Shown piece by piece: positions 4,083-31,363 of a stretch of DNA of 39,797 nt. The position numbers and the translations under genes were made by a program. Numbering within the stretch: the stretch's first letter is position 1; each line of letters opens with the position of its first letter. The DNA lies in IMG/VR virus record IMGVR_UViG_3300049473_000172, positions 1 to 39,797 of that record. One strand, given 5' to 3'. The notes below the pieces were generated by a model, which did no database searches, was not told where the DNA came from, and saw only the letters and a program-made list of their open reading frames with translations. Source of the DNA: a virus.

Positions 4083-4158
4083 GCCCCGCAGCTCATAAAA
4101 ATTCGCTGTGGGGTCACCCCGTCCTCAGGGAATCCCCTCTTGTACGGACGGGGAGAGA
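4083..4158 (+). promoter_or_regulatory. Family A element, copy A1
   Basis: Hairpin 1: GCCCCGCAGC (4083-4092) pairs with GCTGTGGGGT (4105-4114). Hairpin 2: CCCCGTCC (4117-4124) pairs with GGACGGGG (4146-4153) around a loop with GGGAATCCCCT. GAGAGAG follows as the ribosome-binding region of the next gene. Confidence 0.75.
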
Positions 4159-4167
4159 GCGACTTGA

Positions 4168-4656
4168 ATGAGCCATAGACCTAAGACTGGGCTCACAGCC
4201 AAAATTCGGAAGCATATCAGCAAGATCGATGGGCCATTTTCTGCCTGTGTGGCGGCGCGGGAGCTCGGCGTCGGGATCATACGGTTCTATCACGTGCTGG
4301 GGTTCATGCGGCAGCGCGGGGAGGTTGAGAAGGTCAAGGGCAAGCCCGGCTGGCATGAATACCGGGGGGCGGAGCTCAGCAAAAAGCCGTCGGAGGCCCG
4401 GCCCCGGCTGTACAGGGCCATGTATGTGAAGATCAGGTTCTCCGTGCGGGAGATCGCCATGCTGGCCGATACCTACCCCGAACTCGCCCGGTACCAGGTG
4501 GATCGGCTTTTGCGGACCGGGGAGATCGAGCGGATCGGGCGGCAGAGGCTGCCGGGCAGAAGGCCAGAGGCGGTGTATCGGGTGCGGGATCGAGACAAAT
4601 TCTTTCTCGATCACGTACGGCCCCCTAAAGGGGGTGACCGCAATGGAGAAAACTGA
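4168..4656 (+). CDS. Putative winged-helix DNA-binding protein
   Basis: A 162-residue basic protein with two HTH-like segments. The first (FSACVAARELGVGIIRFYHV, followed by MRQRGEVEKVKGKPG) and the second (FSVREIAMLADTYPELARYQ, followed by LLRTGEIERIGRQ) both look like winged helices with a Gly-rich wing. Phages often carry such proteins in the region after MuB. It follows family A element A1, whose 3' end supplies the ribosome-binding site. Target and role are unknown; it could be a repressor or replication accessory factor. Confidence 0.55.
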   Translation: MSHRPKTGLTAKIRKHISKIDGPFSACVAARELGVGIIRFYHVLGFMRQRGEVEKVKGKPGWHEYRGAELSKKPSEARPRLYRAMYVKIRFSVREIAMLADTYPELARYQVDRLLRTGEIERIGRQRLPGRRPEAVYRVRDRDKFFLDHVRPPKGGDRNGEN

Positions 4657-4701
4657 TGGTCGGCCAAGATGAGTTTTTTTTGAAGCATGTACGTAGTGGC
4701 A

Positions 4702-4832
4702 GCCCCGCATCTCCAAAAGAGTCGATGCGGGGTGCCTCGGCCCGAAAGGTATCCCCTGTCGCTACGGCGACATCCCGGTTTCCTAAATGTAAATGTAGGA
4801 GCGGGACTGTTAACACGGGCCGACGCAGAGGC
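4702..4832 (+). promoter_or_regulatory. Family A element, copy A2, split by a C element
   Basis: Hairpin 1: GCCCCGCATC (4702-4711) with GATGCGGGGT (4724-4733). Hairpin 2: CGGCCCG (4738-4744) with CGGGCCG (4816-4822), loop beginning AAAGGTATCCCCTGT. The loop is enlarged by about 50 bases of inverted family C element. The 3' end GACGCAGAGG is the ribosome-binding region of the first gemA gene. Confidence 0.75.
4757..4806 (-). repeat. Family C palindromic element, C1, nested in A2
   Basis: Read on the minus strand it is TCCCGC..CGGGA with an inner TCCTA/TAGGA stem and AT-rich loop, followed by TGTCGC-CGTA-GCGACA (4757-4772 on the plus strand). Inverted relative to most C copies. Sits in the loop of the second A2 hairpin. 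Confidence 0.7.
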
Positions 4833-4839
4833 TGACCAT

Positions 4840-5295
4840 ATGAGAGCTATCGCTGGACAAAATAGAAAACAGATCGACCCTCGGAGCGTCCAGGGGCAAC
4901 GGGCTGGCTTGTTGGCCAAGATCCACGTGGCGGTAAAGCGGCTGGGGATCGACGACGTTACCTACGAGGATATCCTCCGGGAGCAGTACGGGGTGGCCAC
5001 GGCTAAGGCCCTGTCCATTAAAGAGATGGAGCAATTGGTCTCATTTTTTATTGATTTGGGCTGGGTGCCGGTCCGGCGCCAGAAGCATGGCCCCTCGCAG
5101 ATAGCGGCCTTGCAGGAGAGGATCTGGCAGCTCACCGATGAGATCCCGGACGGAAGGAAGCAGCTACCGAGCCTGTGCAAGACGATCCTGGGTACCGAGG
5201 CGGTGGCGTGGTGTAAGGACTGGCAGAAGCTCACCCGCCTAGTGGCGGTGATGGAGAAGATTAAACGGCGGTCCCGCGACGGCGACCCATGCTGA
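4840..5295 (+). CDS. gemA: GemA/Gp16-family protein, copy 1
   Basis: A 151-residue protein of the Mu Gp16/GemA (DUF1018) family. The diagnostic segment is LLAKIHVAVKRLGIDDVTYE followed by DILREQYGVATAKALSIKEM and a Gly-Trp turn (DLGWVPVRRQ). Mu GemA is an early regulatory protein reported to alter host gene expression and DNA supercoiling. The ATG at 4840 is preceded by GAGG from the A2 element; the frame is open upstream, but that part runs through the element. A second, diverged family member starts at 10340. Confidence 0.75.
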   Translation: MRAIAGQNRKQIDPRSVQGQRAGLLAKIHVAVKRLGIDDVTYEDILREQYGVATAKALSIKEMEQLVSFFIDLGWVPVRRQKHGPSQIAALQERIWQLTDEIPDGRKQLPSLCKTILGTEAVAWCKDWQKLTRLVAVMEKIKRRSRDGDPC

Positions 5296-5327
5296 CGCAG
5301 GGTGCCCCTATCAAAAGGAGTTTGAGG

Positions 5328-5552
5328 ATGGGCAGATATATCAAGAACCGCAGGAATTGGCCGAGGCCTCCGCAAAAGAAGAACCGGGAGCTCGTCTATC
5401 TGCACACCAGGATCGGCGGAGAGCATACGATCGTGATCTCCCGGCGCCTCCTGGAGGAGACAAAGGATATGCCCTTTGTACGACGGCTCGATCGGATTTC
5501 GGCGATCACCGGCCAGCCGACCGAGGTATTGAGAGACGTAATTAAGGCATAA
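5328..5552 (+). CDS. Hypothetical protein
   Basis: A 74-residue basic protein (N-terminus MGRYIKNRRNWPRPPQKK). I do not recognise a family. The start chosen has AAAAGGAG seven bases upstream; an earlier ATG at 5289 overlaps the gemA stop but has no ribosome-binding site. The C-terminal part (VRRLDRISAITGQPTEVLRD) could be a short HTH. Confidence 0.55.
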   Translation: MGRYIKNRRNWPRPPQKKNRELVYLHTRIGGEHTIVISRRLLEETKDMPFVRRLDRISAITGQPTEVLRDVIKA

Positions 5553-5556
5553 CAAA

Positions 5557-5580
5557 GGGGCCTGGTGTGGGCCAGGCCCC
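5557..5580. other. Strong hairpin after the 5328 gene
   Basis: GGGGCCTGG (5557-5565) pairs perfectly with CCAGGCCCC (5572-5580). No U-run follows (AATAACC), so it is not a standard intrinsic terminator. It may be an RNA processing or stability hairpin; a similar GGGGCC..GGCCCC hairpin occurs at 12295. Confidence 0.55.
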
Positions 5581-5603
5581 AATAACCACAAGGAGCGTCG
5601 CCC

Positions 5604-5641
5604 CCCGCTGATGCGGGATGACCGATCACGGAAAAAGGAGG
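5604..5641 (+). promoter_or_regulatory. Family B element, copy B1
   Basis: CCCGC-TGAT-GCGGG (5604-5617), then TGACC..GGCCA as a second stem with one A-C mismatch around CGATCACGGAAAAAGG. The loop GGAAAAAGGAGGG also serves as the ribosome-binding site for the ATG at 5646. Confidence 0.65.
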
Positions 5642-5645
5642 GCCA

Positions 5646-5930
5646 ATGACAACTCCCAAGGAACATGATGGCAGAGAAGGGCGAGGACGCCAAGAAGTTA
5701 CTTCCGCCGAGCAGGAGATCACAAGCTGGATCCGCAATATTCTCAAACAATATGAGCCGGGGGATGAAATCTCGGCAAAATTCCTTTACGCCAAGCTCTT
5801 TGCCCATCCGGAACGCTACGGAGCCCCGGGCGTTTATGGGCTGCCTAAACTCGACAAATTTGAGCAGGTCTGCCGCGCCATGTTCTTTACCAGGACCGAA
5901 GGGGGGGAATTGATTGTCCGGGTGCAATAA
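5646..5930 (+). CDS. Hypothetical protein, AHPERYG family
   Basis: A 94-residue protein of unknown function. The core LYAKLFAHPERYG, then LDKFEQVCRAMFF, recurs in the gene at 6185 (AHPERYG, then LNDFSAICRSGAF), so the two are diverged paralogues in one operon. Both end in a beta-rich segment with GGELIVRV or GDQILIRP. It follows family B element B1, which supplies AAAAAGGAGGG. Function unknown; the pattern looks like a small winged-helix domain. Confidence 0.55.
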   Translation: MTTPKEHDGREGRGRQEVTSAEQEITSWIRNILKQYEPGDEISAKFLYAKLFAHPERYGAPGVYGLPKLDKFEQVCRAMFFTRTEGGELIVRVQ

Positions 5931-5932
5931 TG

Positions 5933-5986
5933 GCCCCGCTTTGCGGGGTGGCTACTTTTAGAGAAAACGGGCAGTGACCTAGAGAG
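5933..5986 (+). promoter_or_regulatory. Family B element, copy B2
   Basis: CCCCGC-TTT-GCGGGG (5934-5948) followed by GGCTAC..GTGACC with one C-A mismatch around the conserved TTTTAGAGAAAACGGGCA. GAGAGGTG after it is the ribosome-binding region of the gene at 5994. Confidence 0.7.
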
Positions 5987-5993
5987 GTGTGAA

Positions 5994-6605: not shown

Positions 6606-6743
6606 ATGGTTGATGCCTTTCGATATAGGCCATCAAAGCATGCCGAGGGGCGGGAGCGCCCCTCGGCAGCCGAGCGGAGACATCACAAGAGACGGAAGAC
6701 CAAAATGCGCATGGCTAAGGAATCAAGAAAGAAAAATAGGTAG
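6606..6743 (+). CDS. Possible 45-residue highly basic protein
   Basis: A short ORF beginning MVDAFRYRPSKHAEG and ending KESRKKNR. It is extremely rich in Arg, Lys and His, as in small nucleic-acid-binding proteins. It runs through an 11-bp perfect hairpin (6642-6667) and ends at the TAG that opens element A3. No clear ribosome-binding site is present; coupling to the 6484 gene is possible. Kept as a low-confidence gene. Confidence 0.3.
   Translation: MVDAFRYRPSKHAEGRERPSAAERRHHKRRKTKMRMAKESRKKNR
6642..6667. other. Perfect 11-bp hairpin
   Basis: GCCGAGGGGCG-GGAG-CGCCCCTCGGC. No U-run follows. It resembles the first hairpin of the dispersed elements but lacks the conserved second hairpin, so it is not assigned to family A, B or C. 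Confidence 0.55.
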
Positions 6744-6822
6744 CCCCGCATCGCCCAAAAAGGCGATGTGGGGTCACCCCGCCCGTAGGGTATCCCCTAT
6801 TATAGCGGGTGGGGAGAGAGGA
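6743..6822 (+). promoter_or_regulatory. Family A element, copy A3
   Basis: Hairpin 1: GCCCCGCATCGCC (6743-6755) with GGCGATGTGGGGT (6762-6774). Hairpin 2: CCCCGCCCGT (6777-6786) with GCGGGTGGGG (6805-6814), loop AGGGTATCCCCTATTATA. GAGAGAGGAGAG is the ribosome-binding region of the HU gene. Confidence 0.8.
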
Positions 6823-6829: not shown

Positions 6830-7105
6830 ATGAACAAGGCAGAGTTGGTGGAAAAGTACAGTGAGGAGATGGGGTGCCCCAAGGCCGAGGCGGAGCGCGC
6901 GGTGGATGCAGTATTCAACCTCGCAAAGCAGGCGCTGAAGAAGAGGCAGTTGGTCAAGATCGCCGGGTTCGGCACCTTCGCCGTGGTCAGGCGCAAGGCG
7001 CGCAAAGGGCGTAACCCCAGCACCGGCGAGGAGATCCGGATCCCCGCAAAGAAGAAGCTCGCATTTAAGGCGAGCAAGGCATTCACGGAGCAGCTGAATA
7101 GCTAA
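6830..7105 (+). CDS. HU-family DNA-binding protein
   Basis: A 91-residue HU/IHF-family protein. The N-terminal helices (MNKAELVEKYSEE) and the signature VKIAGFGTFAVVRRKARKGR followed by NPSTGEEIRIPAKKK are textbook HU. It bends DNA as a dimer. Mu transposition needs host HU and IHF to assemble the transpososome, so a phage-borne copy probably supports transposition or genome compaction. The ribosome-binding site is the GAGAGAGGAGAG tail of element A3. Confidence 0.93.
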   Translation: MNKAELVEKYSEEMGCPKAEAERAVDAVFNLAKQALKKRQLVKIAGFGTFAVVRRKARKGRNPSTGEEIRIPAKKKLAFKASKAFTEQLNS

Positions 7106-7114
7106 ACTGCGGTA

Positions 7115-7192
7115 GCCCCGCACCGCCGAAAAGGCGGTGCGGGGTCACACCGCCCGCAAGGTATCCTCTTCCGGACGGGCGGCGAGAGTGAG
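7115..7192 (+). promoter_or_regulatory. Family A element, copy A4
   Basis: Hairpin 1: GCCCCGCACCGCC (7115-7127) with GGCGGTGCGGGGT (7133-7145). Hairpin 2: CCGCCCG (7150-7156) with CGGGCGG (7176-7182), loop CAAGGTATCCTCTTCCGGA. Followed by GAGAGTGAGG before the ATG at 7200. Confidence 0.8.
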
Positions 7193-7199: not shown

Positions 7200-7583
7200 A
7201 TGATCAAAGACGACAACAATGACCTGGAATGGTTTGAATATACCCTCTTGGAGATCCTGCGAGCGCACCGGGGCAGGGAGCAGGCCATCCACAAAAGGCA
7301 ACTCCTGCGGGCTTTTAAGAAGGAAATAGTAGGGGGCGAACGGGGACTGCGCAAGGCCATTAAACACCTAGTAATCAAGCATGGCTATCCCATTGGCTCC
7401 TGCCCTGACGGCTACTTTTGGGCCGTCACGCCCAAAGAGATCGAGGACGTAGTGGGATATTACCGCTCCTACGGCCTGAGTTGCCTGCGGGTGGCAGCCC
7501 GGCTGCAGAAGATACCCCTCAAGATCATGCTGGGGCAGTTGACTTTCGACGCAATGTTTGGGAAGGGGCGGGGTGAAGAGTGA
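7200..7583 (+). CDS. Putative winged-helix phage protein
   Basis: A 127-residue protein with an HTH pattern (AIHKRQLLRAFKKEI, then LRKAIKHLVIKHGYPIGSCP) followed by a turn and GYFWAV, typical of winged helices seen in Mu-like early regions. The second half has YYRSYGLSCLRVAARLQK, a segment I associate with phage early-region proteins of this type. The stop overlaps the next start (GTGA). Probably a DNA-binding accessory protein; the exact role is unknown. Confidence 0.55.
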   Translation: MIKDDNNDLEWFEYTLLEILRAHRGREQAIHKRQLLRAFKKEIVGGERGLRKAIKHLVIKHGYPIGSCPDGYFWAVTPKEIEDVVGYYRSYGLSCLRVAARLQKIPLKIMLGQLTFDAMFGKGRGEE

Positions 7584-8363: not shown

Positions 8364-9056
8364 ATGCCAACTTATCAATATAATTGTGAGGTCTGTGGGG
8401 AGGAGGGGCGAGCCTGGAGGCCCAAGGACCAGCCGCCAAAATATTGCTCCAGGGAATGCACGGCCCGGGGCATGGCCGGTAATCGACGGAGAGTGCGCTG
8501 GCCCATCACCCCAGAGATCCACGAGCAGATCAAAAAGACGTACCAGGCCATGACGGGCAACGGCGAGGTCGCCTCCCTGGCTGCCCGCCTGGGCTATCCC
8601 CGCTGGACGATAGCACGATATGCCAGGAGCCAGGGGTGGGTTGCCACGCAATTAAAGGAGCCCAACTGGAGCGACCAGGAATGTACTATCCTGGAAAAAA
8701 GGGCCTACCTTTCACCCGAGAGAATACAGATCCATTTAAGAAAGGCCGGATTTTCCAGGACCGTCACGGCCATAGTACTCAAACGTAAACGCATGCGGTG
8801 GCCCAAAAATCTAGGCGGGATGAGCGCACATCAGCTGGCCGAATGCCTGGGGGTAGACCCCCACTTTGTTACCCGGGCAATCAAAGATGGAAGGCTACGG
8901 GCCACCATGAGAGGTACCCACCGGACCGCGAAACAGGGCGGGGATATCTACTTCATCAAGGACAAGGCGATAAGGGCATACATCGTTGAGAACATTAACG
9001 AGATCGATATCAGAAAAGTCGATAAATTTTGGTTCGTGGACATGTTAACGGGATAG
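8364..9056 (+). CDS. Zinc-ribbon plus HTH DNA-binding protein
   Basis: A 230-residue protein with three parts: an N-terminal ribbon (CEVCGEE with a later CSREC), a central HTH-like stretch (VASLAARLGYPRWTIARYAR), and a C-terminal domain starting GMSAHQLAECLGVDPHFVTR and ending VDKFWFVDML. The last part matches a helix-turn-helix domain common in phage proteins encoded near gam in Mu-like genomes. Likely a transcription regulator; its target is not visible. Confidence 0.6.
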   Translation: MPTYQYNCEVCGEEGRAWRPKDQPPKYCSRECTARGMAGNRRRVRWPITPEIHEQIKKTYQAMTGNGEVASLAARLGYPRWTIARYARSQGWVATQLKEPNWSDQECTILEKRAYLSPERIQIHLRKAGFSRTVTAIVLKRKRMRWPKNLGGMSAHQLAECLGVDPHFVTRAIKDGRLRATMRGTHRTAKQGGDIYFIKDKAIRAYIVENINEIDIRKVDKFWFVDMLTG

Positions 9057-9647: not shown

Positions 9648-10266
9648 AAAGGGTGCTGTTATTAAAAAGGCTATCAAGCAACATGCGCCGGGGGCTATGG
9701 TCTTCGGGTTCGTGCTGCTCTTGATGGGGGTTATAGTAGTTGGAGCGATCCTGATCGTGCAGAACATCGAGACCAAACTGCTCCTGGACCGGCTAGCCGA
9801 GCGCCAGGGGCGCATTGAGGAGCGGCTGGAGCAGCTTACGCCGAAGCGGGACGTCGACAATATGGCCTGGCGGTTCGAGCGGATGCCGTGGTTTTCGTCC
9901 ATCGATGCGGGGGTGATCACGCTCACAATTTACCGTTGCGCCCTCGAACATGGGCTGCCGCCGCGCCTGATAGAGGCCATGATCGTGATCGAATCCTATC
10001 GCAACCCGAAGGCCGAATCGCACAAGGGGGCCAAGGGGCTTATGCAGCTGATGCCCTGCCATTTGGCCGAAGGAGAAGACCCCCATGATCCAATCCTGTC
10101 CATCGAGAGAGGTGCGGCGTATTTTGCGCAATGCCTGCGGGAATGCGGGAATGATTTTGCCTGCGCCCTGTTGAGGTATAATGGCAGCGATCCCGCCAAC
10201 CCATACAAGGAGAGCATCGCATATGCCGAGATGGTGCAGGGGCATTGGGAGAGATTTACACGGTGA
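9637..10266 (+). CDS. Membrane-anchored lytic transglycosylase (SLT)
   Basis: A 209-residue protein with an N-terminal transmembrane helix (about 19-41), a short coiled coil (45-68) and a C-terminal SLT domain. The catalytic Glu is E119 in MIVIESYRNP, followed by AKGLMQLMP and, near the end, ALLRYNGSDP with the usual Tyr-Asn-Gly. It would cleave peptidoglycan glycan strands from the periplasmic face, for DNA entry or lysis. AAAAGGAGG precedes the ATG. The stop overlaps a GTG that opens a truncated gemA fragment. Confidence 0.85.
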   Translation: MGCKKGAVIKKAIKQHAPGAMVFGFVLLLMGVIVVGAILIVQNIETKLLLDRLAERQGRIEERLEQLTPKRDVDNMAWRFERMPWFSSIDAGVITLTIYRCALEHGLPPRLIEAMIVIESYRNPKAESHKGAKGLMQLMPCHLAEGEDPHDPILSIERGAAYFAQCLRECGNDFACALLRYNGSDPANPYKESIAYAEMVQGHWERFTR

Positions 10267-10343
10267 ACCGCAAAACCGCCCTGGCAGCTATCCATATTGC
10301 CCCGCCTTGCGGGATCACTCCCGTTGGAGAGAACATAAGGTGA
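10263..10343 (+). pseudogene. Truncated gemA start, now a 26-codon leader
   Basis: From the GTG overlapping the transglycosylase stop, the frame reads VNRKTALAAIHIA, clearly the first 13 codons of a GemA/Gp16 protein, then runs into family B element B5 and stops at the TGA that overlaps the GTG of the intact gemA at 10340. Bases 10276-10300 match 10356-10380 at 22 of 25, and all three differences are synonymous third positions. So this is the remnant of a diverged homologue, not a fresh duplication, and its translation would be coupled to the intact gene. Confidence 0.75.
10299..10343 (+). promoter_or_regulatory. Family B element, copy B5, at a gene-fusion joint
   Basis: CCCGC-CTT-GCGGG (10301-10313), then TCAC..GTGA around TCCCGTTGGAGAGAACATAAG. 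The conserved GTGA of the second stem is the actual start of the intact gemA gene. Confidence 0.7.
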
Positions 10344-10729
10344 CCGACCGTAACTCCGCCCTGGCAGCCATCCACATCGCAAAGAAGGATTTGGGCATGG
10401 AGGATGAGGTCTACCGTGCGTTTCTCCAGGAGCACACAGGCAAGAGCTCGGCCAAGGAAATGAATCCCAAGGAGCACATCAAGGTGATCCGGGCGTTTGA
10501 GGAGAAGGGGTTTGTACGTAAACGCAGACAATACGACAAAGAAGCTTATATAAGGCTCATTAAGAAGCTATGGCATCAAGTATCTCGTGCCAATGATGAA
10601 CCGCTGGCCCTGCGCAGACGGATATTTAAATACCACCACGTAACCGAGTTGGAACAGCTCTCCATCGAGCAACTCCGGGAGATCTATGCCGACCTCCAGC
10701 GAGCATGCCGGGGATGGCGGCGGTGGTAG
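10340..10729 (+). CDS. gemA: GemA/Gp16-family protein, copy 2
   Basis: A 129-residue Gp16/GemA (DUF1018) protein. It has the diagnostic N-terminus ALAAIHIAKKDLGMEDEVYR, then EHTGKSSAKEMNPKEHIKV and the conserved C-terminal LSIEQLREIYADLQR helix. It is closer to classical Mu GemA than the copy at 4840. The GTG start lies in the 3' stem strand of element B5. The frame is open upstream, but that part belongs to the transglycosylase gene in another frame. Confidence 0.8.
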   Translation: MTDRNSALAAIHIAKKDLGMEDEVYRAFLQEHTGKSSAKEMNPKEHIKVIRAFEEKGFVRKRRQYDKEAYIRLIKKLWHQVSRANDEPLALRRRIFKYHHVTELEQLSIEQLREIYADLQRACRGWRRW

Positions 10730-10905
10730 AAAAGACAAAGACCGATGACCAACCATCAGTGGGCAATAAAGAAATAATGCGACGATTTACCTGCCAGGGA
10801 TGCGGCAGGCATTTGTTTAAGTATGTGGGGAAATTTGAGATTGTCAAGGTTCGCTGCCGACGATGTGGATTTTATAATGTATTTCGAGGGGACAATGGGA
10901 CTTGA
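10705..10905 (+). CDS. com: Com-like zinc-ribbon translational regulator
   Basis: A 66-residue protein, possibly only 42 if the ATG at 10777 is used. The core RRFTCQGCGRHLFKYVGKF then VRCRRCGFYNVF has the two CxxC pairs of Mu Com, a zinc protein that binds mom mRNA and opens a stem-loop masking the ribosome-binding site. No mom-like gene is visible nearby. The many hairpins in front of start codons in this genome make an RNA target plausible. Overlaps the gemA 3' end by 25 bases. Confidence 0.65.
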   Translation: MPGMAAVVEKTKTDDQPSVGNKEIMRRFTCQGCGRHLFKYVGKFEIVKVRCRRCGFYNVFRGDNGT

Positions 10906-10932
10906 CAGCGCCAAAGGTTATGTTATTATAAT
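10902..10932 (+). promoter_or_regulatory. Candidate middle/late promoter
   Basis: TTGACA at 10902-10907, with TATTAT at 10924-10929 (16-base spacer) or TATAAT at 10927-10932 (19-base spacer). It lies in the AT-rich gap between the early/middle block and the lysis genes, where Mu-like phages switch transcription. A terminator starts about 35 bases after the expected transcription start. Confidence 0.55.
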
Positions 10933-10972: not shown

Positions 10973-11008
10973 GGCCCGATTCCCGAAAGGGATCGGGCCT
11001 TTTATTTT
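10973..11008 (+). terminator. Intrinsic terminator or attenuator
   Basis: GGCCCGATTCCC-GAAA-GGGATCGGGCC (one bulged base) followed by TTTTATTTT. This is the clearest intrinsic terminator in the window. It would stop early transcription arriving from upstream and also truncate transcripts started at the promoter just before it, giving a short RNA of roughly 60-70 bases unless antitermination occurs. Confidence 0.85.
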
Positions 11009-11690: not shown

Positions 11691-12074
11691 ATGAAAAGAC
11701 TGTATTTTTTAATCTGGTTGACGGTAGCGGTCTTTTTAATCACAGGGGGCATCAGGGCTCAGGAACCTGCACCCCTTGGGCCGATTATAGAGAAGTGGTC
11801 CGGGAGCCCCACTACCCCGATCATGCCGGTTGATTTTGACGGCGACGGTCAAGAAGATTTTTCCATGCTGGCAATTGACGATTTGGCCACCCCATCTTCC
11901 CCCGATGCAGCGTTGTTCGGCACGCCGGTAGAGGGGCGGATCTGGGCGGTGATCGAGTGGCAAGAAAGCCGGTGGGAGATCGTGTGGTTCGATCCTGAAG
12001 CCCCACAGGCCTGGATCGAGTGGTTAAGGGAGCAGATCCGTCCACGGGAGGCGGTGGAGGAAGTGGGGGTTTAA
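11691..12074 (+). CDS. Secreted protein with DxDGDG calcium-type motif
   Basis: A 127-residue protein with a classic signal peptide (MKRLYFLIWLTVAVFLITGG, cleavage likely after IRAQ). The mature part contains DFDGDGQED, an EF-hand or FG-GAP-like calcium loop, and an aromatic C-terminal region (WAVIEWQESRWEIVWFD). AAAGGA lies eight bases before the ATG. It follows the endolysin, so a periplasmic role in lysis is possible, but no family is recognised. Confidence 0.55.
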   Translation: MKRLYFLIWLTVAVFLITGGIRAQEPAPLGPIIEKWSGSPTTPIMPVDFDGDGQEDFSMLAIDDLATPSSPDAALFGTPVEGRIWAVIEWQESRWEIVWFDPEAPQAWIEWLREQIRPREAVEEVGV

Positions 12075-12082
12075 CTTAAACA

Positions 12083-12163
12083 GCCCCGCATCGCCGAGAA
12101 AGGCGATGTGGGGTCACACCGCCCGCAAGGTATCCCCTATAAGACGGGCGGAGAGAGAGGTGT
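12083..12163 (+). promoter_or_regulatory. Family A element, copy A5
   Basis: Hairpin 1: GCCCCGCATCGCC (12083-12095) with GGCGATGTGGGGT (12102-12114). Hairpin 2: CCGCCCG (12119-12125) with CGGGCGG (12145-12151), loop CAAGGTATCCCCTATAAGA. GAGAGAGAGGTG is the downstream ribosome-binding region. Confidence 0.8.
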
Positions 12164-12166
12164 GAG

Positions 12167-12268
12167 ATGATATGCATATTGTTTATCGGTGGAGCCTTGG
12201 TGATCGGGGTTCTTGCCGGATTTTTCATCGGCAAGTACGTCGAGGTTAAGAAACAAACCATCGGATGA
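12167..12268 (+). CDS. Tiny single-pass membrane protein
   Basis: A 33-residue peptide (MICILFIGGALVIGVLAG start) with one transmembrane helix and a short basic tail (KYVEVKKQTIG). The start is well placed behind GAGAGAGGTG from element A5, which is the best evidence that it is real. Located in the lysis block; holin-partner or regulator roles are guesses. Confidence 0.5.
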   Translation: MICILFIGGALVIGVLAGFFIGKYVEVKKQTIG

Positions 12269-12294
12269 TGGTTAAGGGCCAATAGGCCAGCTAA

Positions 12295-12320
12295 GGGGCC
12301 CCGCCTCGGGGCGGGGCCCC
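12295..12320. other. Strong GGGGCC hairpin
   Basis: GGGGCCCCGCC-TCGG-GGCGGGGCCCC, a perfect 11-bp stem, followed by ATTGG rather than a U-run. Similar in outer sequence to the hairpin at 5557-5580. Possibly an mRNA-stability or processing site between the 12167 and 12343 genes. Confidence 0.55.
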
Positions 12321-12342
12321 ATTGGATTACACTGGAGGCTAT

Positions 12343-12564: not shown

Positions 12565-12835
12565 GCGTATCGGCATCTTTTTGGCCGGACTAGATGGGTT
12601 CCTGTTGGCCCTGCTGTTGATGGGTGTGGGCAAGGGGTACATCAAGAAGGCTGACAAGGCCGAGGCTAAGGCGAAGGAAAAGCTTGGGCGCGCTGATCTG
12701 ATTGAAAAATATATCCAGGTGCTCAAAAAGCAAAACAGGTTCACTGATGAAGAGATCGCTGCCGAACGCAAGAGGATCAAGGCGATCAAGGATTTAGAGG
12801 TGTTAAAAGATGAATTTACGAGACTTGGCTATTAA
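12539..12835 (+). CDS. Membrane-anchored coiled-coil protein
   Basis: A 98-residue protein: short basic N-terminus, one transmembrane helix (about 11-31), then a Lys/Glu/Ala-rich helical region (ADKAEAKAKEKLGRADLIEK). Such single-pass, periplasmic coiled-coil proteins are typical of inner-membrane spanins, and a lipoprotein gene overlaps its 3' end. It could be an i-spanin; assignment is by architecture only. Confidence 0.45.
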   Translation: MAKLLKWAKRIGIFLAGLDGFLLALLLMGVGKGYIKKADKAEAKAKEKLGRADLIEKYIQVLKKQNRFTDEEIAAERKRIKAIKDLEVLKDEFTRLGY

Positions 12836-13340
12836 ATCCTTTACTTTTAAATCCTTTACTTTAATAGCCCTGGGGCTTTTCCTCCTGAATGGTGGATGTG
12901 CCTCAGCCCTCCTGGGGGGGAGGGCCGAGGTCACCTCGCCCCCAAGGACAACCCTTTTGGGAAAGGGCGAGGCGACTGTACTCCCTCAAATTATCTTTGA
13001 GGTACCTCCTGAAAAGCCTCTTGCGAAAGAGGTCCTCAAAAAAGGGCAGACTGCCCCTGGGGACGGCCTCTGGTTTGATGAAGAATCGGCCAAGATCATC
13101 CTGGGGGACCTCGCCGAGTACCGCCAGCTCAAGGTCAAGGTTCAGATTCAGGAGCAGATCATAAAGGCATACGGGGACCAGGCGCAGCTGTTGCGTGAGG
13201 CTAATGATTTACAGGCCCAGGCCAACCAGGAGCTGCGCAAGGAGATTGAGTCACAGCGGAAATGGAGCACGATTAAAAACTGGGCGTCCGTGGTGGGCGC
13301 CGTGGCCGCCTTCGCCCTCGGTATCTGGGCGGGGAAGTGA
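12810..13340 (+). CDS. Lipoprotein-like protein in the lysis block
   Basis: A 176-residue protein with an N-terminal hydrophobic stretch and a lipobox-like LLNGGC at about residues 25-30, so it may be lipidated. The middle is Pro-rich, then comes a coiled coil (EYRQLKVKVQIQEQI, then REANDLQAQANQEL) and a C-terminal hydrophobic helix (WASVVGAVAAFALGIWAG). Overlaps the upstream membrane protein by 26 bases, as in many Rz/Rz1 pairs. A spanin-like role is inferred. Confidence 0.5.
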   Translation: MNLRDLAIKSFTFKSFTLIALGLFLLNGGCASALLGGRAEVTSPPRTTLLGKGEATVLPQIIFEVPPEKPLAKEVLKKGQTAPGDGLWFDEESAKIILGDLAEYRQLKVKVQIQEQIIKAYGDQAQLLREANDLQAQANQELRKEIESQRKWSTIKNWASVVGAVAAFALGIWAGK

Positions 13341-18191: not shown

Positions 18192-18202
18192 GGCGATAGA
18201 TA

Positions 18203-18334
18203 GCCCCGCATCTCGAAAAACTCGATGCGGCCCCGCACTACAACGAAGAATAAGGACAACGGGGTCCCGCAAGCGGGAGATGCCCCGGTTCGCAAGGAAT
18301 CCCCTGTTGAGACGAACCGACGCAGAGAGGTGGA
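18203..18334 (+). promoter_or_regulatory. Family A element, copy A6, split by a C element
   Basis: Hairpin 1: GCCCCGCATC (18203-18212) with GATGCGG (18224-18230), interrupted by C4, continuing GATGCC at 18279. Hairpin 2: CGGTTCG (18286-18292) with CGAACCG (18313-18319), loop CAAGGAATCCCCTGTTGAGA. GACGCAGAGAGGTGG precedes the protease ATG. Confidence 0.75.
18231..18278 (+). repeat. Family C palindromic element, C4, nested in A6
   Basis: CCCCGC..CGGGG (18231-18264) with an A-rich loop, then TCCCGC-AA-GCGGGA (18265-18278). It lies between the end of hairpin 1 and the start of hairpin 2 of the A6 element. Confidence 0.65.
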
Positions 18335-20652: not shown

Positions 20653-21636
20653 ATGGCACAACCGAATGTCAAAGAAGAACTGATTGCGGGACCGTTGCCT
20701 GGCGTATCCATCGCCTACCGCAATCTAGAGTATATCGGGGATCGGGTCTTCAATATCGTTGACGGCTCCGATCCCAAGGCCAAGATCACCAAATACCAGC
20801 GGGGGGCCTGGTTCCGCAACGAGGCCGGCATCCGCGCGGCAGGCACCCGCGCTAGGCGCGGCGGCTATCCCATCACCTCGGTCTCCATGTCCACCAACGA
20901 GTACGCCTTTGCCAAAGAGGTGACGGACGAGGACCGCAAATTTGCCAAGACAAAGAACGCCCCGGTGCTGCAGCCGGACCAGGATGCCGTGGAATTTGCT
21001 GCGGACAAGATCGACTTGGAAAAGGAGATCCGCATCGCCCAGACCATCAAGGACACTACCTGGGTGGACGACAACGCCGCCGGCGAGGATGCGGAGGGTA
21101 AATGGGTTGCCTCATCCGGCAATACCTTCTTGGCGGATATCACCACGGGCAAAAAGGCCATCAAGAACGCCGCAGGGGTCATCCCCAACGTGCTCTTGAT
21201 CGACTACGCCACCTATCTGGGGCTCAAAGAGGTGGATGACATCCTGCAAAAGATCAAATACACCCAGCGCGCCATCTTTGGGAAGGAGCTGCTTGCCTCC
21301 CTGCTGGAGCTTGAGGAGGTCCTAGTGGGGATGGCGATTTACTCTAGCGCCAAGGAGACCAAAGCCGGCACGGATTTTACCGCCGTGGACATTTGGGAGG
21401 TCAATGCGGGCAAGGGGATGGGCTTTTTGTTCTACCGTCCGCCCCGGATTGGGCTCAAAGTCCGCTGCGCCGGCCTACAGGCCCGCATCGAATACGAGAG
21501 CGGTAACATCCGGCGGGTGAGTAAGTGGCGTGAAGAGGCAGAACACCAGGATGTGTACGAGGTGGCCGAGGAGACCGACATCGTCGTGGTCGATGCCTAC
21601 TGCGGCTACAAGTGGTGCGATGTCTACGCCACGTGA
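20653..21636 (+). CDS. T: Major capsid protein (Mu gpT role)
   Basis: A 327-residue protein in the gpT position. Features: YQRGAWFRNEAGIRAAGTRA, GGYPITSVSMSTNEYAFAKE, DEDRKFAKTKNAPVLQPDQD and the closing DIVVVDAYCGYKWCDVYAT. This is the pattern of an HK97-fold major coat protein seen in several Mu-like siphophages, rather than close Mu gpT. Expected as the most abundant virion protein. AAAGGAGG from element B8 is the ribosome-binding site, fitting high expression. Confidence 0.85.
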   Translation: MAQPNVKEELIAGPLPGVSIAYRNLEYIGDRVFNIVDGSDPKAKITKYQRGAWFRNEAGIRAAGTRARRGGYPITSVSMSTNEYAFAKEVTDEDRKFAKTKNAPVLQPDQDAVEFAADKIDLEKEIRIAQTIKDTTWVDDNAAGEDAEGKWVASSGNTFLADITTGKKAIKNAAGVIPNVLLIDYATYLGLKEVDDILQKIKYTQRAIFGKELLASLLELEEVLVGMAIYSSAKETKAGTDFTAVDIWEVNAGKGMGFLFYRPPRIGLKVRCAGLQARIEYESGNIRRVSKWREEAEHQDVYEVAEETDIVVVDAYCGYKWCDVYAT

Positions 21637-21658
21637 CGCCGGATTTTAAAGTGGAATA

Positions 21659-21736
21659 GCCCCGCACCGCCAAGAAAGGCGGTGCGGGGTCACCCTGCCC
21701 GCAAGGTATCCCCTTGTAAACGGGCAGAGAGAGAGG
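21659..21736 (+). promoter_or_regulatory. Family A element, copy A7, after the capsid gene
   Basis: Hairpin 1: GCCCCGCACCGCC (21659-21671) with GGCGGTGCGGGGT (21678-21690). Hairpin 2: CTGCCCG (21695-21701) with CGGGCAG (21721-21727), loop CAAGGTATCCCCTTGTAAA. Located directly downstream of the gpT-role gene, the position of the Rfam Mu-gpT-DE motif; identity is not verified. Confidence 0.8.
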
Positions 21737-21741: not shown

Positions 21742-22008
21742 ATGAAGATCAGATATGACGGGCCGGGGAGCTTTGTCAATGTCCACCCCTATGGGCAGCA
21801 CCTCAAGGATGAGATCAAGGAATACCCAGACGATTTCGTGAAGGAGCTGCTTGCCACGAGCAAGGCGCAGAAGTTTACGGTGGTCGATGACGACAAGGAC
21901 GAGAAAAAGAGAGAGACTCCTACGCTAGATGACCCTCTTGGCAAAAGGAAAGGCAAAAAGATTTTTGGACCTGTGCCGCCGCCTGATGAAGAGGAAAACG
22001 CTCAATGA
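21742..22008 (+). CDS. Hypothetical head/tail-region protein (Mu gp35 position)
   Basis: An 88-residue acidic/basic protein (MKIRYDGPGSFVNVHPYGQH start) with a flexible Pro- and Lys-rich C-terminus. The beginning is a small beta domain, and KFTVVDDD resembles FTVVDGS in the 24401 protein. It occupies the Mu gp35 position; function unknown. GAGAGAGAGG from element A7 precedes it, and its end overlaps the gp36 start. Confidence 0.55.
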   Translation: MKIRYDGPGSFVNVHPYGQHLKDEIKEYPDDFVKELLATSKAQKFTVVDDDKDEKKRETPTLDDPLGKRKGKKIFGPVPPPDEEENAQ

Positions 22009-22843: not shown

Positions 22844-23296
22844 ATGACGATGATAAACGAGCAAACAGTGCAAAAATTACTCAAAAAGTATAAATTCAAG
22901 CCCCCCTTTCATCTGGTGGCTTGCCATTATTGGGTAAGATGGGAAGACGAAATTCTTGCCGAAGTTGATTGTATTTTAAAAAAAGGGGGCCAGGCATATG
23001 CTGTTGAGATCAAGGGGGTGAATCACAAAACCGATAGCGGAAATCATCTTTTATGGAAAGCATCCAAAATTTTGGCTGTTACGAAGATTTTGAATTGTCT
23101 GGAGGCGGAGAGCTATATTCCCAGCATAATGTTGCCGGAGGAGAAAATAACCAGCACTGTTTTGGCAATATGTTTCCATCTAGGGATTGCCCTTTTTGGA
23201 TATTCGGGCGGCGAGGGGAAGAAAGCCCTTTGTATCAAAAATTATGATCTAAATAAGATGTTTCAAAATAAAAGAAGCAAATGGCTATCAGTTTAG
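22844..23296 (+). CDS. PD-(D/E)XK-like nuclease-fold protein
   Basis: A 150-residue protein with a D-x12-E-x-K arrangement (D42 in AEVDCILKK; E55 and K57 in YAVEIKGVNH) typical of PD-(D/E)XK nucleases, followed by a helix with LLWKASKILAVTKILN. It could be an endonuclease or an inactive relative. Its AT-rich composition and its pairing with an HTH gene suggest a small defence, restriction or homing cassette. No ribosome-binding site is obvious. It overlaps the truncated gpG fragment by 16 bases. Confidence 0.55.
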   Translation: MTMINEQTVQKLLKKYKFKPPFHLVACHYWVRWEDEILAEVDCILKKGGQAYAVEIKGVNHKTDSGNHLLWKASKILAVTKILNCLEAESYIPSIMLPEEKITSTVLAICFHLGIALFGYSGGEGKKALCIKNYDLNKMFQNKRSKWLSV

Positions 23297-23484
23297 ATAT
23301 CAATATCAAGGGTGAAAAAGATCTTCTCAAAGACCAGCGGGAGCGTCTCGGGCCGCCCATGCGGCTGTATCCTGTAACCAAGGACTTCGGGGAGCGGATG
23401 CTTTTTTCCATCGAGGAAAATTTCCGCCTGCAGGGTATCCCCTTTTGGGCAGGCGGCGAGAGGTGGCCGGATGCTCCAGCTTAG
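23281..23484 (+). pseudogene. Truncated 5' copy of the gpG gene
   Basis: Reads MAISLDINIKGEKDLL, then RLYPVTKDFGERMLFSIEEN, which parallels LTPVTRDMGERMEYSIEENF of the intact gpG at 23471. It loses homology exactly where the second hairpin of a family A element begins (23424), and the rest of the frame (GIPFWAGGERWPDAPA) is element-derived. It is thus a 5' fragment of a diverged homologue. It may still be translated and coupled to gpG, whose ATG lies inside its end. Confidence 0.7.
23424..23466 (+). promoter_or_regulatory. Family A half-element, A10, at a gene-fusion joint
   Basis: Only hairpin 2: CCGCCTG (23424-23430) with CAGGCGG (23450-23456), loop CAGGGTATCCCCTTTTGGG. Hairpin 1 is missing. 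GCGAGAGGTGG after it is the ribosome-binding region of the intact gpG. Confidence 0.75.
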
Positions 23485-23893
23485 GCTCGATGCAAAGGGC
23501 GCGATAAAGGGATTGCAGGCTATCGGGGGGCGGCTCGCCGGCAGGATGCGGGATCTCACCCCGGTGACCAGGGACATGGGCGAGCGGATGGAGTATTCCA
23601 TCGAGGAGAACTTCCGCCGGGGGGGTAGGCCCGAGAGATGGGAGCCATCCAAAAAGGCCGAGGGCATGACCCTTATCGAAACGGCCAGGCTCAAAAATTC
23701 CATCACCTATCGAGCGGACCGCAAGGGCCTGTCCGTGGGCACCAATGTGATTTATGCCCGGATCCATCAGCTCGGCGGCAAGGCGGGCAAGGGGCACAAA
23801 GTTACCATCCCGGCGAGGCCGTTTCTGGTGGTTCAAGAAAGCGACCTGGCATATTTCAGACGCAGAATATTGGAGCACATTCAACGTGTATAG
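23471..23893 (+). CDS. G: Tail completion protein gpG (virion morphogenesis)
   Basis: A 140-residue protein of the Mu G family: LTPVTRDMGERMEYSIEENF, then GGRPERWEPSKKAEG and NVIYARIHQLGGKAGKGHKV with the closing IPARPFLVV. It works at tail completion and head-tail joining. ATG is preceded by GAGAGGTGG from the A half-element. Full-length for the family. Confidence 0.88.
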   Translation: MLQLRLDAKGAIKGLQAIGGRLAGRMRDLTPVTRDMGERMEYSIEENFRRGGRPERWEPSKKAEGMTLIETARLKNSITYRADRKGLSVGTNVIYARIHQLGGKAGKGHKVTIPARPFLVVQESDLAYFRRRILEHIQRV

Positions 23894-24400: not shown

Positions 24401-24643
24401 ATGGCATACAAGCTAAAAAAGGAATATGAATCCTTCACCGTGGTGGATGGGTCTTTTGCAGGCCAGACGTTCAGCCATGCAACAGAATATGAGACCATCC
24501 CACCGGAAGAAAAGGGGAAGTTTGAGAAAGCCAACAAGGCGGAAGGCGGGGATCCTGCGAAGACCGACCGCCCTCGTTCTGCAAAAGGGATCACCCCGCG
24601 AAGCGGGGGAGCGGGTGAGGATGGGGGGCAAAATAATAGGTAG
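24401..24643 (+). CDS. Hypothetical protein with element-encoded tail
   Basis: An 80-residue protein. The N-terminal 45 residues (MAYKLKKEYESFTVVDGSFA onward) form a small domain similar in style to the 21742 product. The C-terminal segment DRPRSAKGITPRSGGAG is encoded by element C6, in the same frame that C8 uses in the NlpC gene (DRPSSIRGSSRKAGE). Located in the Mu gp38 position just before the tail tube; function unknown. Confidence 0.55.
   Translation: MAYKLKKEYESFTVVDGSFAGQTFSHATEYETIPPEEKGKFEKANKAEGGDPAKTDRPRSAKGITPRSGGAGEDGGQNNR
24566..24610 (+). repeat. Family C palindromic element, C6, inside a CDS
   Basis: GACCGCCC with GGGATC (24587-24592), then CCCCGC-GAA-GCGGGG (24594-24608). 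Very close in sequence to C8 and read in the same frame as C8 in a different gene. Confidence 0.65.
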
Positions 24644-24724
24644 CCCCGCATCACCAAAAAGGCGATGCGGGATGCCTCGGCCCGAAAGGTATCCCCTCCC
24701 ATACGGGCCGACGCAGAAAGAGAG
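24643..24724 (+). promoter_or_regulatory. Family A element, copy A8
   Basis: Hairpin 1: GCCCCGCATC (24643-24652) with GATGCGGGAT (24664-24673). Hairpin 2: CGGCCCG (24678-24684) with CGGGCCG (24704-24710), loop AAAGGTATCCCCTCCCATA. Preceded by AATAGGTAG as in A3. GAGAGGTG follows for the tail tube gene. Confidence 0.8.
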
Positions 24725-24733: not shown

Positions 24734-26032
24734 ATGTCAGTTCGTAACATTTTAGCCACACACAACCTGCTGGCCGTCTCTGCCAACGTGCGGGAGAGCG
24801 CCATCAATACCGAGGGTACCCTGGATACCTGCATGCTGGTGGCGGCGGACGATATCGTCAATCTCAACCCGCGCAGGGAATCCAACGCCGACGAGGCCAT
24901 CGGCAAGGAGGAGCCGGACGGGATCTACGACCTCGGCGGGCTGGCCGAGGGGACGTTTAATTTCAACAAGGCCCAGCCGCAGCACTTCGCCTTCATCATG
25001 GCCTACGCCCTGGGGCAGTGTGAAAGCGCCGCAGCCGGGGCCACCGGGTACAAGCACACCATCACGCCCATCAATTTCGACCTGGATACGGCCCGGTCAA
25101 ACCCGAGCTTTACCGCCGCCATGCGCTACGGCAAGCAGGTGCTCAAGCGGCGCTTTGCCTCGTGTTTTGTAGATTCCTTCACCGCCAGTTTCCCCAAGGA
25201 CGACTGGGTGAAGATCTCCGCAGCGATCAAGGCCACGGGCAAGGTGACCACGAATATCTACGAAGAGACCCTGGCGGCCCTGGATAATGCCGAATCCCTC
25301 ACCCTGGCGGCCAATGGGGTGGAGGGATCGAGCGCGGCGGAGCGCCTGGCCAACATGCAGCGGATCATCGGGGAGTACCCCAGCTCCGGGGTATGGACCG
25401 ACGTGGCTTATTCCGCCGTGTCCGCAGCGACGCCGGCGGTGATCACCATCGCCTCGCTCGGCGGGGCAGGGGCGAGCATCAACTACAAGCTCCTGTATGT
25501 GCCCACTGAATCCGGCTGGATGAGCTTTCCCTCCCGGATTAACGAGACGCCGCTGCGGGTGGTCCAGCTATTGATCAATGTCGGGGGCAAGTGGAACGGC
25601 TCGGCTATTGCCGGGGGGCATCAGCTCGCAGCGGAGCTCAAAAGCCTGGAATGGTCCTTTGCCAATGGGATCACCCCGGAGTTTACCCCGGGATCCGGCA
25701 ATCTGTACTATGCCGACCGGGCCATCCGCACCGGCAGGGAGCAGTCCGTCTCGCTCGGTAGAGAATTCCGCGACTATGTCTACCAGCAGCATATCGACCT
25801 CAACGATACCTTCGTGGTCTACATGATTGCCGAGGGGGCGGAGTACGAGGACGGGCACAAGTACACCGTTGAGGTGGTCTTTCCCAAGGTGGCGGTGATG
25901 AGCGCACCCATCGGGGTGGATGCCAAGCGGCTCTCCGAGGACCTCACCCTGCAGATCCTGGAGGATGATACATACGGAAGCGTGGCTGCATACGTTAAAA
26001 ATAAACAACAAAAATATGCAGCTGAATCATAA
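24734..26032 (+). CDS. Major tail tube protein
   Basis: A 432-residue protein placed between the tail terminator and the chaperones, where siphoviruses encode the tube protein. Segments NILATHNLLAVSANVRESAI, LGGLAEGTFNFNKAQPQHFA and SLEWSFANGITPEFTPGSGN fit a tube protein with an inserted domain. It is larger than most tube proteins, suggesting a decorating domain. Not Mu-like (no contractile sheath gene is present). GAGAGGTGAAT from element A8 precedes it. Confidence 0.65.
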   Translation: MSVRNILATHNLLAVSANVRESAINTEGTLDTCMLVAADDIVNLNPRRESNADEAIGKEEPDGIYDLGGLAEGTFNFNKAQPQHFAFIMAYALGQCESAAAGATGYKHTITPINFDLDTARSNPSFTAAMRYGKQVLKRRFASCFVDSFTASFPKDDWVKISAAIKATGKVTTNIYEETLAALDNAESLTLAANGVEGSSAAERLANMQRIIGEYPSSGVWTDVAYSAVSAATPAVITIASLGGAGASINYKLLYVPTESGWMSFPSRINETPLRVVQLLINVGGKWNGSAIAGGHQLAAELKSLEWSFANGITPEFTPGSGNLYYADRAIRTGREQSVSLGREFRDYVYQQHIDLNDTFVVYMIAEGAEYEDGHKYTVEVVFPKVAVMSAPIGVDAKRLSEDLTLQILEDDTYGSVAAYVKNKQQKYAAES

Positions 26033-29409: not shown

Positions 29410-30017
29410 GTTTGGAAGATTTTCAAGACGTGCTTTTCCCCCCGGGTATCAGCATAGGATCGCGCGGCGGCCCGGGGTTTTTGACCAAAGTTCTGGTACT
29501 CGGCTCCGGGCATGAGCAGCGCAATATCGAATGGGAAAAGAGCCGTGCCAGATACAATGTCGCCTATGGACTGCGAACACAGGTGGAACTCGACGAGGTG
29601 CTCGCCTTTTTTTACGCCCGCCGGGGTAAGGCCTACAGCTTCCCGTATAAAGATTGGCGCGATTATTCAATCACGGGTCAAGCCGTGGGTACTGGCGACG
29701 GCGAGACCAAGATCTTTAATCTCAAAAAGACCTATTCGGACGGCACCTATACCTACGAGCGCATCAACATCCTGCCCGTGGTGGCCACTGTCAAGATTTA
29801 TTTTGACGAGGTGGAGCAGGAATCCGGCTGGTCCGTGGACCGGGAGGCCGCTACCGTTACCTTTACCTCCGCACCTGGGGAAGGGGTGGTCATCACTGCA
29901 GATTTTGAGTTCCACGTGCCGGTGCGTTTTGATACCGATGAGCTGCCCCAGACCATACAGCCGGCAAAGCACGGAGTGACGCAGGATATACCCCTTGTGG
30001 AAGATAGGATTAAATGA
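29406..30017 (+). CDS. Distal tail protein, DUF2460 (GTA-like)
   Basis: A 203-residue DUF2460 protein: SIGSRGGPGFLTKVLVLGSG, EWEKSRARYNVAYGLRTQ, FYARRGKAYSFPYKDWRDY and VRFDTDELPQTI. This family sits between tape measure and DUF2163 in gene transfer agents and many siphophages and forms part of the distal tail ring. Overlaps the tape measure by four bases. Confidence 0.88.
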   Translation: MSLEDFQDVLFPPGISIGSRGGPGFLTKVLVLGSGHEQRNIEWEKSRARYNVAYGLRTQVELDEVLAFFYARRGKAYSFPYKDWRDYSITGQAVGTGDGETKIFNLKKTYSDGTYTYERINILPVVATVKIYFDEVEQESGWSVDREAATVTFTSAPGEGVVITADFEFHVPVRFDTDELPQTIQPAKHGVTQDIPLVEDRIK

Positions 30018-30019
30018 CG

Positions 30020-30067
30020 CCCCGCTTTGCGGGGTGCCCACAATCGGAGAAGGCATGAGGTAGGGCA
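30020..30067 (+). promoter_or_regulatory. Family B element, copy B10
   Basis: CCCCGC-TTT-GCGGGG (30020-30034), then TGCCC (30035-30039) with GGGCA (30063-30067) around ACAATCGGAGAAGGCATGAGGTA. The A of GGGCA is the first base of the next start codon, so melting the stem would expose the start. Confidence 0.8.
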
Positions 30068-31281
30068 TGAGACAAGTTTCTAATGATTTCAAGAATCTTT
30101 CCCTTGCCGCCAGGGTCACCACCCTGGCGCAGTTGTGGAAGGTCACCCGCACCGACAGCGAGGTTTTCGGCTTCACGGATCACGACCGAGATATCATCTA
30201 TGACGGCCTCACCTACAAGGCTGCCAAGGGATACCTGCCCTCGGCCATCGCCAATGCGGGCAATCTGGCCGTGGACAATCTGGACGTGGTTACCATGCTC
30301 GATGCAGGGTTTTTTACTGAGGCGGATATCATGGCCGGGGTGTGGGACAACGCCGAGGTGGATCTTTCCCTGATTGACTATGAGCACCCCGAGCGCGGGG
30401 TGATGATCCTGGGGGCCGGCTGGCGCGTGGGGGAGCTCAGCGTGGGGGATAATCAATTCTCCGCAGAGATCCGCTCCAAGACCCAGCGCCTGCAGCAGGT
30501 CATCGTGGAGCTCACCTCCCCGGAATGCCGAGCCACGCTGGGGGATGAGCGGTGCAAGATCGCCCTGCAGTCAGGTCCCTGGCAGGCCGAGCAGGATCAG
30601 GTTTTAGGAGATTTTGTACGGGCCATCTCTTATGATGGCCGCCGTTATGTCTGCATCGTTGCCGGCACCACCGGCGAAACGGAGCCGGAATGGGATACCA
30701 CGGTTGGCAACGAGACAGAGGATGGCACGGTCACCTGGCTGTGCTGCGATCTTCTGGAGGTCGACCCCTGGTCCGCCGAGGAAGAAATAACCCTCGGCGA
30801 GATACACAGGGCGACAATATATGATTATCGCCAGTACGTGTGCATTGTGGCCGGCACCACCGGCGCCACGGAGCCTTCCTGGAACACGACCCCAGGGGAG
30901 ACAACCGAGGATGGCACGGTCACCTGGCTCTGTATTGCCGCTTGGCACAAGGAGGCTGCGGTCACCGGCGTGACGGATCGGCGGGAGTTCGAGGCCGTCT
31001 CCCTGGCTGACGAGGACGACGCCTTCAATTATGGCGTGCTCCTATGGCTGACCGGGGCCAATGCCGGGTACGAGATGGAGGTCAAGGATTGGGCCCTCTC
31101 CACCCACACCATGATCCTTTTTGAGAAGATGCCCCATACCATCCAAATAGGCGATACCTTCGCCGTCTCGATGGGATGTGATCGCAGGCTTGCCACCTGC
31201 AAGATGCGATATAACAACGTGGTCAATATGCGTGCCGAGCCTTATTTGCCAGGCACGGACGAGGTGTTGAGGTATGCATAA
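30067..31281 (+). CDS. Tail hub protein, DUF2163 (GTA-like)
   Basis: A 404-residue DUF2163 protein: LAQLWKVTRTDSEVFGFTDH, LAVDNLDVVTMLDAGFFTEA and the closing CDRRLATCKMRYNNVVNMRA. Between the two domains there is a tandem repeat of about 50 residues (RRYVCIVAGTTGETEPEW, later RQYVCIVAGTTGATEPSW, both followed by EDGTVTWLC), which looks like an added carbohydrate-binding-type repeat. The GTA equivalent is part of the baseplate hub. Starts in the stem of element B10. Confidence 0.88.
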   Translation: MRQVSNDFKNLSLAARVTTLAQLWKVTRTDSEVFGFTDHDRDIIYDGLTYKAAKGYLPSAIANAGNLAVDNLDVVTMLDAGFFTEADIMAGVWDNAEVDLSLIDYEHPERGVMILGAGWRVGELSVGDNQFSAEIRSKTQRLQQVIVELTSPECRATLGDERCKIALQSGPWQAEQDQVLGDFVRAISYDGRRYVCIVAGTTGETEPEWDTTVGNETEDGTVTWLCCDLLEVDPWSAEEEITLGEIHRATIYDYRQYVCIVAGTTGATEPSWNTTPGETTEDGTVTWLCIAAWHKEAAVTGVTDRREFEAVSLADEDDAFNYGVLLWLTGANAGYEMEVKDWALSTHTMILFEKMPHTIQIGDTFAVSMGCDRRLATCKMRYNNVVNMRAEPYLPGTDEVLRYA

Positions 31282-31291
31282 AGAAAAGGTA

Positions 31292-31363
31292 GTCCCGCAT
31301 TTCCGAAAAAGTCAATGCGGGATGCCTCGATTCGAAAGGAATCCTCTATTGGGGCGAATCGAC
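31292..31363 (+). promoter_or_regulatory. Family A element, copy A9
   Basis: Hairpin 1: GTCCCGCATT (31292-31301) with AATGCGGGAT (31314-31323). Hairpin 2: CGATTCG (31328-31334) with CGAATCG (31355-31361), loop AAAGGAATCCTCTATTGGGG. Stem differs strongly from other A copies with full pairing kept. Confidence 0.8.

Follow-up and report, generated by a model that had tools for sequence, protein, structure and literature searches.

Why does a virus genome repeat one two-hairpin sequence at ten places, each time in front of a gene? We addressed this question in a 39.8-kb virus record (IMG/VR IMGVR_UViG_3300049473_000172) analyzed over its whole length and referred to here as the window, in which a first-pass annotation, made from the letters alone, had pointed out the repeat (here family A) and interpreted it as a translational control cassette. 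The gene order of the window, with a Mu-type transposase, AAA partner, GemA, HU, Gam, terminase, portal, and tail genes, is that of a Mu/B3-like transposable phage, and its closest known portal relatives are B3-like Pseudomonas phages at 36% identity. The results described below clearly indicate that the fold of the + strand, as RNA or as single-stranded DNA, is under selection. The reading that we favor, with a probability of about one-half, is that family A is a phage-private, fast-turnover, two-hairpin palindromic element lodged between a stop codon and the Shine-Dalgarno (SD) sequence that follows it.

Architecture and covariation of family A

The family A unit is ~75 nt long and consists of hairpin 1 (G-CCCCGC..., up to 13 bp), a spacer reading TCAC or TGCC, and hairpin 2, in which a 7–8-bp stem carries the nearly fixed 12-nt loop AARGGWATCCYCT; the ribosome-binding site then follows. 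Copies are of type I (TCAC...GAGAG) or type II (TGCC...CGACGCA). At the foot of hairpin 1, GTAG is exact in about 5 of 13 copies and TAG is found in 7. A covariance model (R1) built from seven clean copies, as the first-pass annotation had proposed, recovered all ten places listed there, at 37–97 bits and every one on the + strand (Table 1); elsewhere, in 1.07 Mb from related phages, R1 scored no higher than 20.4 bits. The earlier count of nine full copies and one half copy holds as far as the places are concerned, but two of the nine, copies 2 and 6, carry inserts of ~50 nt.

Table 1. Positions, R1 scores, and gene context of family A copies in the window (start named by the first-pass annotation in parentheses; ORF, open reading frame)
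Feature	Coordinates	Strand	Type and form	R1 score (bits)	Hairpin 2 end to start codon (nt)	Gene context
Copy 1 (4083)	4081..4157	+	I, both hairpins	83.9	14 (ATG)	before ORF 4168-4656
Copy 2 (4702)	4700..4824	+	II, ~54-nt insert within hairpin 2 loop	61.1 (and fold)	16	before gemA (PF06252), start 4840
Copy 3 (6743)	6741..6818	+	I	93.2	15	before HU-like gene 6830-7105 (PF00216)
Copy 4 (7115)	7113..7188	+	I	93.8	17	before ORF 7200-7583
Copy 5 (12083)	12081..12157	+	I	96.0	15	before 33-aa ORF at 12167
Copy 6 (18203)	18201..18325	+	II, ~48-nt insert in or after hairpin 1	37.4 (right part only)	18	before ORF 18338-19738
Copy 7 (21659)	21657..21733	+	I	97.1	14	before ORF 21742-22008
Half copy (23424)	23424..23462	+	I, hairpin 2 only	37.4	14	before neck gene 23471-23893
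Copy 8 (24643)	24641..24716	+	II	84.8	22 (ATG) or 13 (GTG)	before minor tail ORF 24734-26032 (PHROG 290)
Copy 9 (31292)	31290..31367	+	II, without GAGAG tail	79.7	9	before ORF from ATG 31372 to 31911
Possible degenerate eleventh copy	12898..12976	+		35.0		within ORF 12810-13340

In the alignment of the seven copies, both partners have changed in 9 of 21 pairs, and covariation scored 0.358, compared with 0.155 after shuffling (0 of 500 shuffles reached the observed value). When 15 copies from two phages were aligned, both-sided change extended to 19 of 21 pairs (46 cells; 0 of 500 shuffles), in an alignment that was fitted to the model and leans towards structure. Across 12 copies, 83 of 84 cells in the seven core pairs of hairpin 2 are standard pairs; the stem of copy 6, for instance, reads CGGTTCG/CGAACCG. 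These results bear out the earlier claim of compensatory stem changes around a kept loop, and with it that of selection on a folded structure, with the proviso that covariation alone cannot separate an RNA fold from a single-stranded DNA fold. The G-U and A-C cells that bear on strand choice number 14 and 3, respectively, most of the G-U cells being one constant closing pair.

A clean insertion at 12898 is unsupported by the alignment with the related phage described below, in which the orthologue is only slightly shorter; the minus strand of this place also scores 20.6 bits.

Start codons, Shine-Dalgarno sequences, and a colinear relative

Among all collections searched, the only other record with family A is IMG/VR contig 3300037424_002814 (42.2 kb; hereafter G001), which is colinear with the window and has ~72% DNA identity to it in terminase and transposase. 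Its copies lie on the reverse complement (rc) at 12067, 12343, 13702, and 24457, with a weak one near 14479, and one of them precedes a com-like gene. Searches of viral contigs with loop and stem DNA patterns returned G001 as the one true relative together with one chance match (L005, apparently coding), and a further pattern search there gave G001 again and eight loci without the element. Family A was not found in 80 portal relatives and two terminase relatives, which is weak evidence because these collections may lack the host. The same limit of a possibly uncovered host applies to the R1 search over 155 genomes from the class of a Syntrophaceae relative (G013), which gave one chance match without the loop motif, and to the pattern search of 395 genomes from the phylum of that relative, which gave none and is likewise weak evidence. 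A pattern search of the genome contig collection yielded no family A. When one copy was compared with phages and plasmids by blastn, only partial, non-significant matches came up, and a search for relatives with gemA found none, the likely reason being that its query contained the element. A cmscan of the window against Rfam 15 gave no match at the gathering threshold and only chance matches to F6 and SECIS_3 at E ≤ 10. Thus the Mu-gpT-DE RNA, which is also a structured RNA candidate of Mu-like phages and to which the first-pass annotation had pointed for comparison, was not matched at either level. Judged by these searches, family A appears to be private to one small phage lineage, and the database search that the annotation had envisaged added a single carrier and none beyond it.

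In the two phages taken together, 13 of 14 copies have the end of hairpin 2 at 9–22 nt, mostly 12–18 nt, from a downstream start codon (14, 12, and 12 nt for three copies of G001), and all copies are on the sense strand. The genes that follow are early and late alike. The claim of sense-strand placement stands for all ten places, whereas that of a GAGAG-type tail before the start codon fails for copy 9. Copies equally often antisense or away from start codons had been named in advance as counting against the earlier claim; none is antisense, but one G001 copy, discussed below, lies inside an ORF away from any usable start and in part counts against it.

The SD itself belongs to the target gene, as two leaders indicate. 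Before the HU gene, AGAGAGG stands 8 nt before the ATG in both phages, with the element directly upstream in the window and none in G001; at the half copy, the GAGAGG that follows hairpin 2 (GAGAGGTGG) represents conserved GERW/PERW codons of the neck protein. GAGAG-type SDs without family A are also found at other genes of both phages. We therefore doubt that GAGAGAGG is part of the element, which seems, on comparison of the two genomes, to sit beside pre-existing SD-like sequences and not to bring an SD of its own. In predicted folds, the mean unpaired probability of SD and start codon was 0.53 with the element, 0.53 with the element deleted, and 0.49 with the element shuffled, so that sequestration of the SD by the hairpins is unsupported.

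Compared gene by gene, the window and G001 share none of about ten comparable element sites. Window copies 1, 2, 3, 4, and 6 and the half copy are without a G001 counterpart, and G001 copies likewise lack counterparts at orthologous sites in the window. The G001 junction orthologous to that of copy 1, for example, is free of the element, and at the site of copy 2 gene 3 and gemA of G001 overlap, again with no element. In the reverse case, the G001 copy at rc 12067-12145 lies in frame inside ORF rc 11889-12341; the window orthologue, 10181-10729, has no insert and is ~21 aa shorter at that place, and more distant homologues have other linkers there, also without the element. This comparison of orthologues does not prove which state, empty or filled, is ancestral. 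The lack of common sites in two colinear phages indicates that family A copies turn over.

The half copy, which also lies in frame within a truncated duplicate of the neck gene (23281-23484), has 92% identity to the com-leader copy of G001 over 39 nt. The neck/tail-completion gene of the window is doubled (23281-23893, the truncated copy followed by the intact one), and the half copy is at the junction of the duplicated genes; G001 has one neck gene.

Neighboring features and other repeats

A Com-like zinc ribbon (PF10122) may be encoded at 10780-10908, where the score of 19.1 bits is below the cut-off of 22.9; a sigma-70-like promoter (10902-10929) and an intrinsic terminator (10973-10999) adjoin its end. 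A second leader family, family B, consists of a short GC hairpin followed by TGACT.CTATT.GAGAAAAC.GG.GGTGA right before genes, on the + strand of the window at 4622, 5605, 5931, 7807, 9275, 10299, 20589, 26156, 30020, and 31862, and in G001 at, among others, rc 7163, 11092, 12600, 13397, and 20260. One family B hairpin lies beside copy 2, between gene 3 and gemA (4600-4700), with flanks that look duplicated (TTCTCGATCACGTACG / TTTTGAAGCATGTACG). A small hairpin, CCCGCGAAGCGGG (or with an AAA loop), occurs four times on the + strand at ~7.2-kb intervals (17147, 24583, 31820, and 38913), and the similar TCCCGCAAGCGGGA forms part of the insert in copy 6.

Mu-like relatives (L007, L019, L044, L058, L059, L071, and L095) each have their own private repeat (e.g. 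GGGGACTGTCCC, CCCTCTCCCGCCAGGGGAGAGGG, and CTAACGCCTAAA), found at widely varying distances upstream of genes and for the most part in a single orientation. Because these unrelated repeats are also sense-only, sense-only placement is by itself no argument for translation control. The terminase relative L095 (DNXB01000333.1, 71%) is binned in a Verrucomicrobiales metagenome-assembled genome and L096 (DIFQ01000123.1, 69%) in a Syntrophaceae one; one of the two may be misbinned.

A host palindrome, CTTCGCCTAAAGGCGAGGGATTTCAACC, is present in 85 copies in the G297 genome, with its orientation in long blocks along the contigs; four copies in one orientation lie in or beside a related Mu-like prophage (G297:C4:246000-285999, L119 and L120). 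This arrangement is what one would expect if insertion takes place into a single strand of the replication fork (lagging-strand targeting, PMC6006769).

Family A as a possible mobile element or control signal

The turnover of sites, the copy inside a G001 ORF, the NTAG tag that several copies carry at the base of hairpin 1, and the behavior of the G297 palindrome all point to mobility, as do strong covariation around a fixed loop, SDs owned by the target (HU and the half copy), and restriction to two records. Family A would then be a small, non-autonomous mobile element that has spread much as REP, PATE, or RPE repeats do, possibly by way of single-stranded DNA at replication forks and with an enzyme supplied in trans. 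It may insert beside SD-like GAGAG, or it may survive best there because the leader slot harms no gene; in the mRNA, its two hairpins would abut the ribosome-binding site on the 5' side and leave it unmasked.

Family A is like REP/RAYT palindromes and IS200/605-type ends (PMC3733652, PMC6006769) in several respects: these are short, species-private palindromes, mostly intergenic and in part intragenic, and the GTAG-like foot tag of several family A copies may correspond to the REP guide tetranucleotide. Presence and absence at orthologous sites, in both directions between the window and G001, fits this likeness, and a replication-strand bias may be common to both (PMC6006769). Family A differs in its longer two-hairpin unit, in the lack of a Y1 transposase in the phage, and in being tightly fixed to start codons, whereas REP sequences lie mainly downstream of genes. 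The in-frame insertion at G001 rc 12067, as one clear case, recalls Rickettsia palindromic elements (PMC10969869), but most family A copies are intergenic, and because the ORF-embedded copies read in different frames there is no conserved peptide, so that family A is not a Rickettsia-type element in that sense.

Several points weigh against mobility. A Y1 (PF01797) transposase gene is absent from both phages, although supply in trans by a host would still be possible, and no host genome carrying the repeat is known. Neither a target duplication nor an exact left boundary is readable, and the exact GTAG is confined to the minority of copies given above. Stems are intact everywhere, even in the insert-bearing copies, which could reflect a function in place. 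Finally, family A keeps to a much narrower range of distances from the start codon than the private repeats of related phages do, a comparison that is rough because the latter distances were taken from a 12-mer core, and this tightness argues for some tie with translation initiation.

These last points could be accommodated by a translational regulon, in which a phage or host RNA-binding protein would read the AARGGWATCCYCT loop and tune about ten genes. We consider this explanation rather unlikely, although compensatory change around a fixed loop, start-codon distances that are mostly 12–18 nt, and placement on the sense strand only are all consistent with it. Known systems offer two precedents. 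The SAS/ESAS of cluster K mycobacteriophages, a 13-bp GGGATAGGAGCCC motif located 3–7 bp before starts whose function is unknown but for which a role in translation is suspected (PMC3203893), are likewise phage-private inverted repeats, about ten to nineteen copies in essentially one orientation directly before starts, a placement that family A shares. However, the GGGATAGGAGCCC motif is not above chance in the window (20 matches at up to 3 mismatches versus 21.5 expected), ESAS keep to the same gene families from one relative to another, which family A copies do not, and the two hairpins with a fixed loop have no parallel there; neither by motif nor by conservation of place is family A SAS/ESAS. 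In Mu com/mom (PMC6483171), a hairpin likewise adjoins a translation start, and both the putative Com-like zinc ribbon of the window and the G001 copy before a com-like gene fit this precedent. The known Com recognition motif, CC(N)2-3GAG (PMC6483171), is nevertheless missing from the conserved loop, the targets are many, and the start codon is not masked in the predicted folds. Against a regulon of either kind, G001 carries its copies at other genes, early and late genes are preceded alike, predicted SD accessibility is the same with and without the element, and one copy is inside an ORF. Overall, family A keeps its place relative to start codons but is not bound to particular genes; the structural claim of the first-pass annotation stands, and its claim of a translational control cassette is not established, given copies that turn over and an SD that is the target's own.

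An improbable alternative is that the hairpins process, stabilize, or insulate mRNA between cistrons, as T7 RNase III sites do, in which case any suitable hairpin would serve and turnover would be free. Some orthologous sites in G001 do have a hairpin of unrelated sequence in front of the SD (for example, rc 8841-8872, which follows HU, and 21014-21032), and family B leaders are similar in layout, but a nearly invariant 12-nt loop and the copy inside an ORF would remain unexplained, and stems of 7–13 bp are short for RNase III. Two adjacent hairpins with a fixed loop on the sense strand would also suit a cis-acting antiterminator or pause element like HK022 put, which consists of two hairpins in nascent RNA. 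This is very improbable, since family A has ten copies scattered next to start codons, at a fixed spacing from them, and not one or two near promoters.

If family A is indeed a mobile palindromic leader element, then strong RNA-like covariation combined with sense-only placement does not prove a conserved regulon, and small palindromic repeats can multiply in a compact phage genome by occupying the handful of bases that separate a stop codon from a ribosome-binding site. An extension of this reading, which we regard as doubtful, is that the element targets SD-like GAGAG, so that with each jump an RNA structure of constant design would come to lie at the edge of a ribosome-binding site and could bring new genes under a common, loop-mediated control. 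Should the loop recruit a factor, the phage could rewire the translation of many genes by moving one element.

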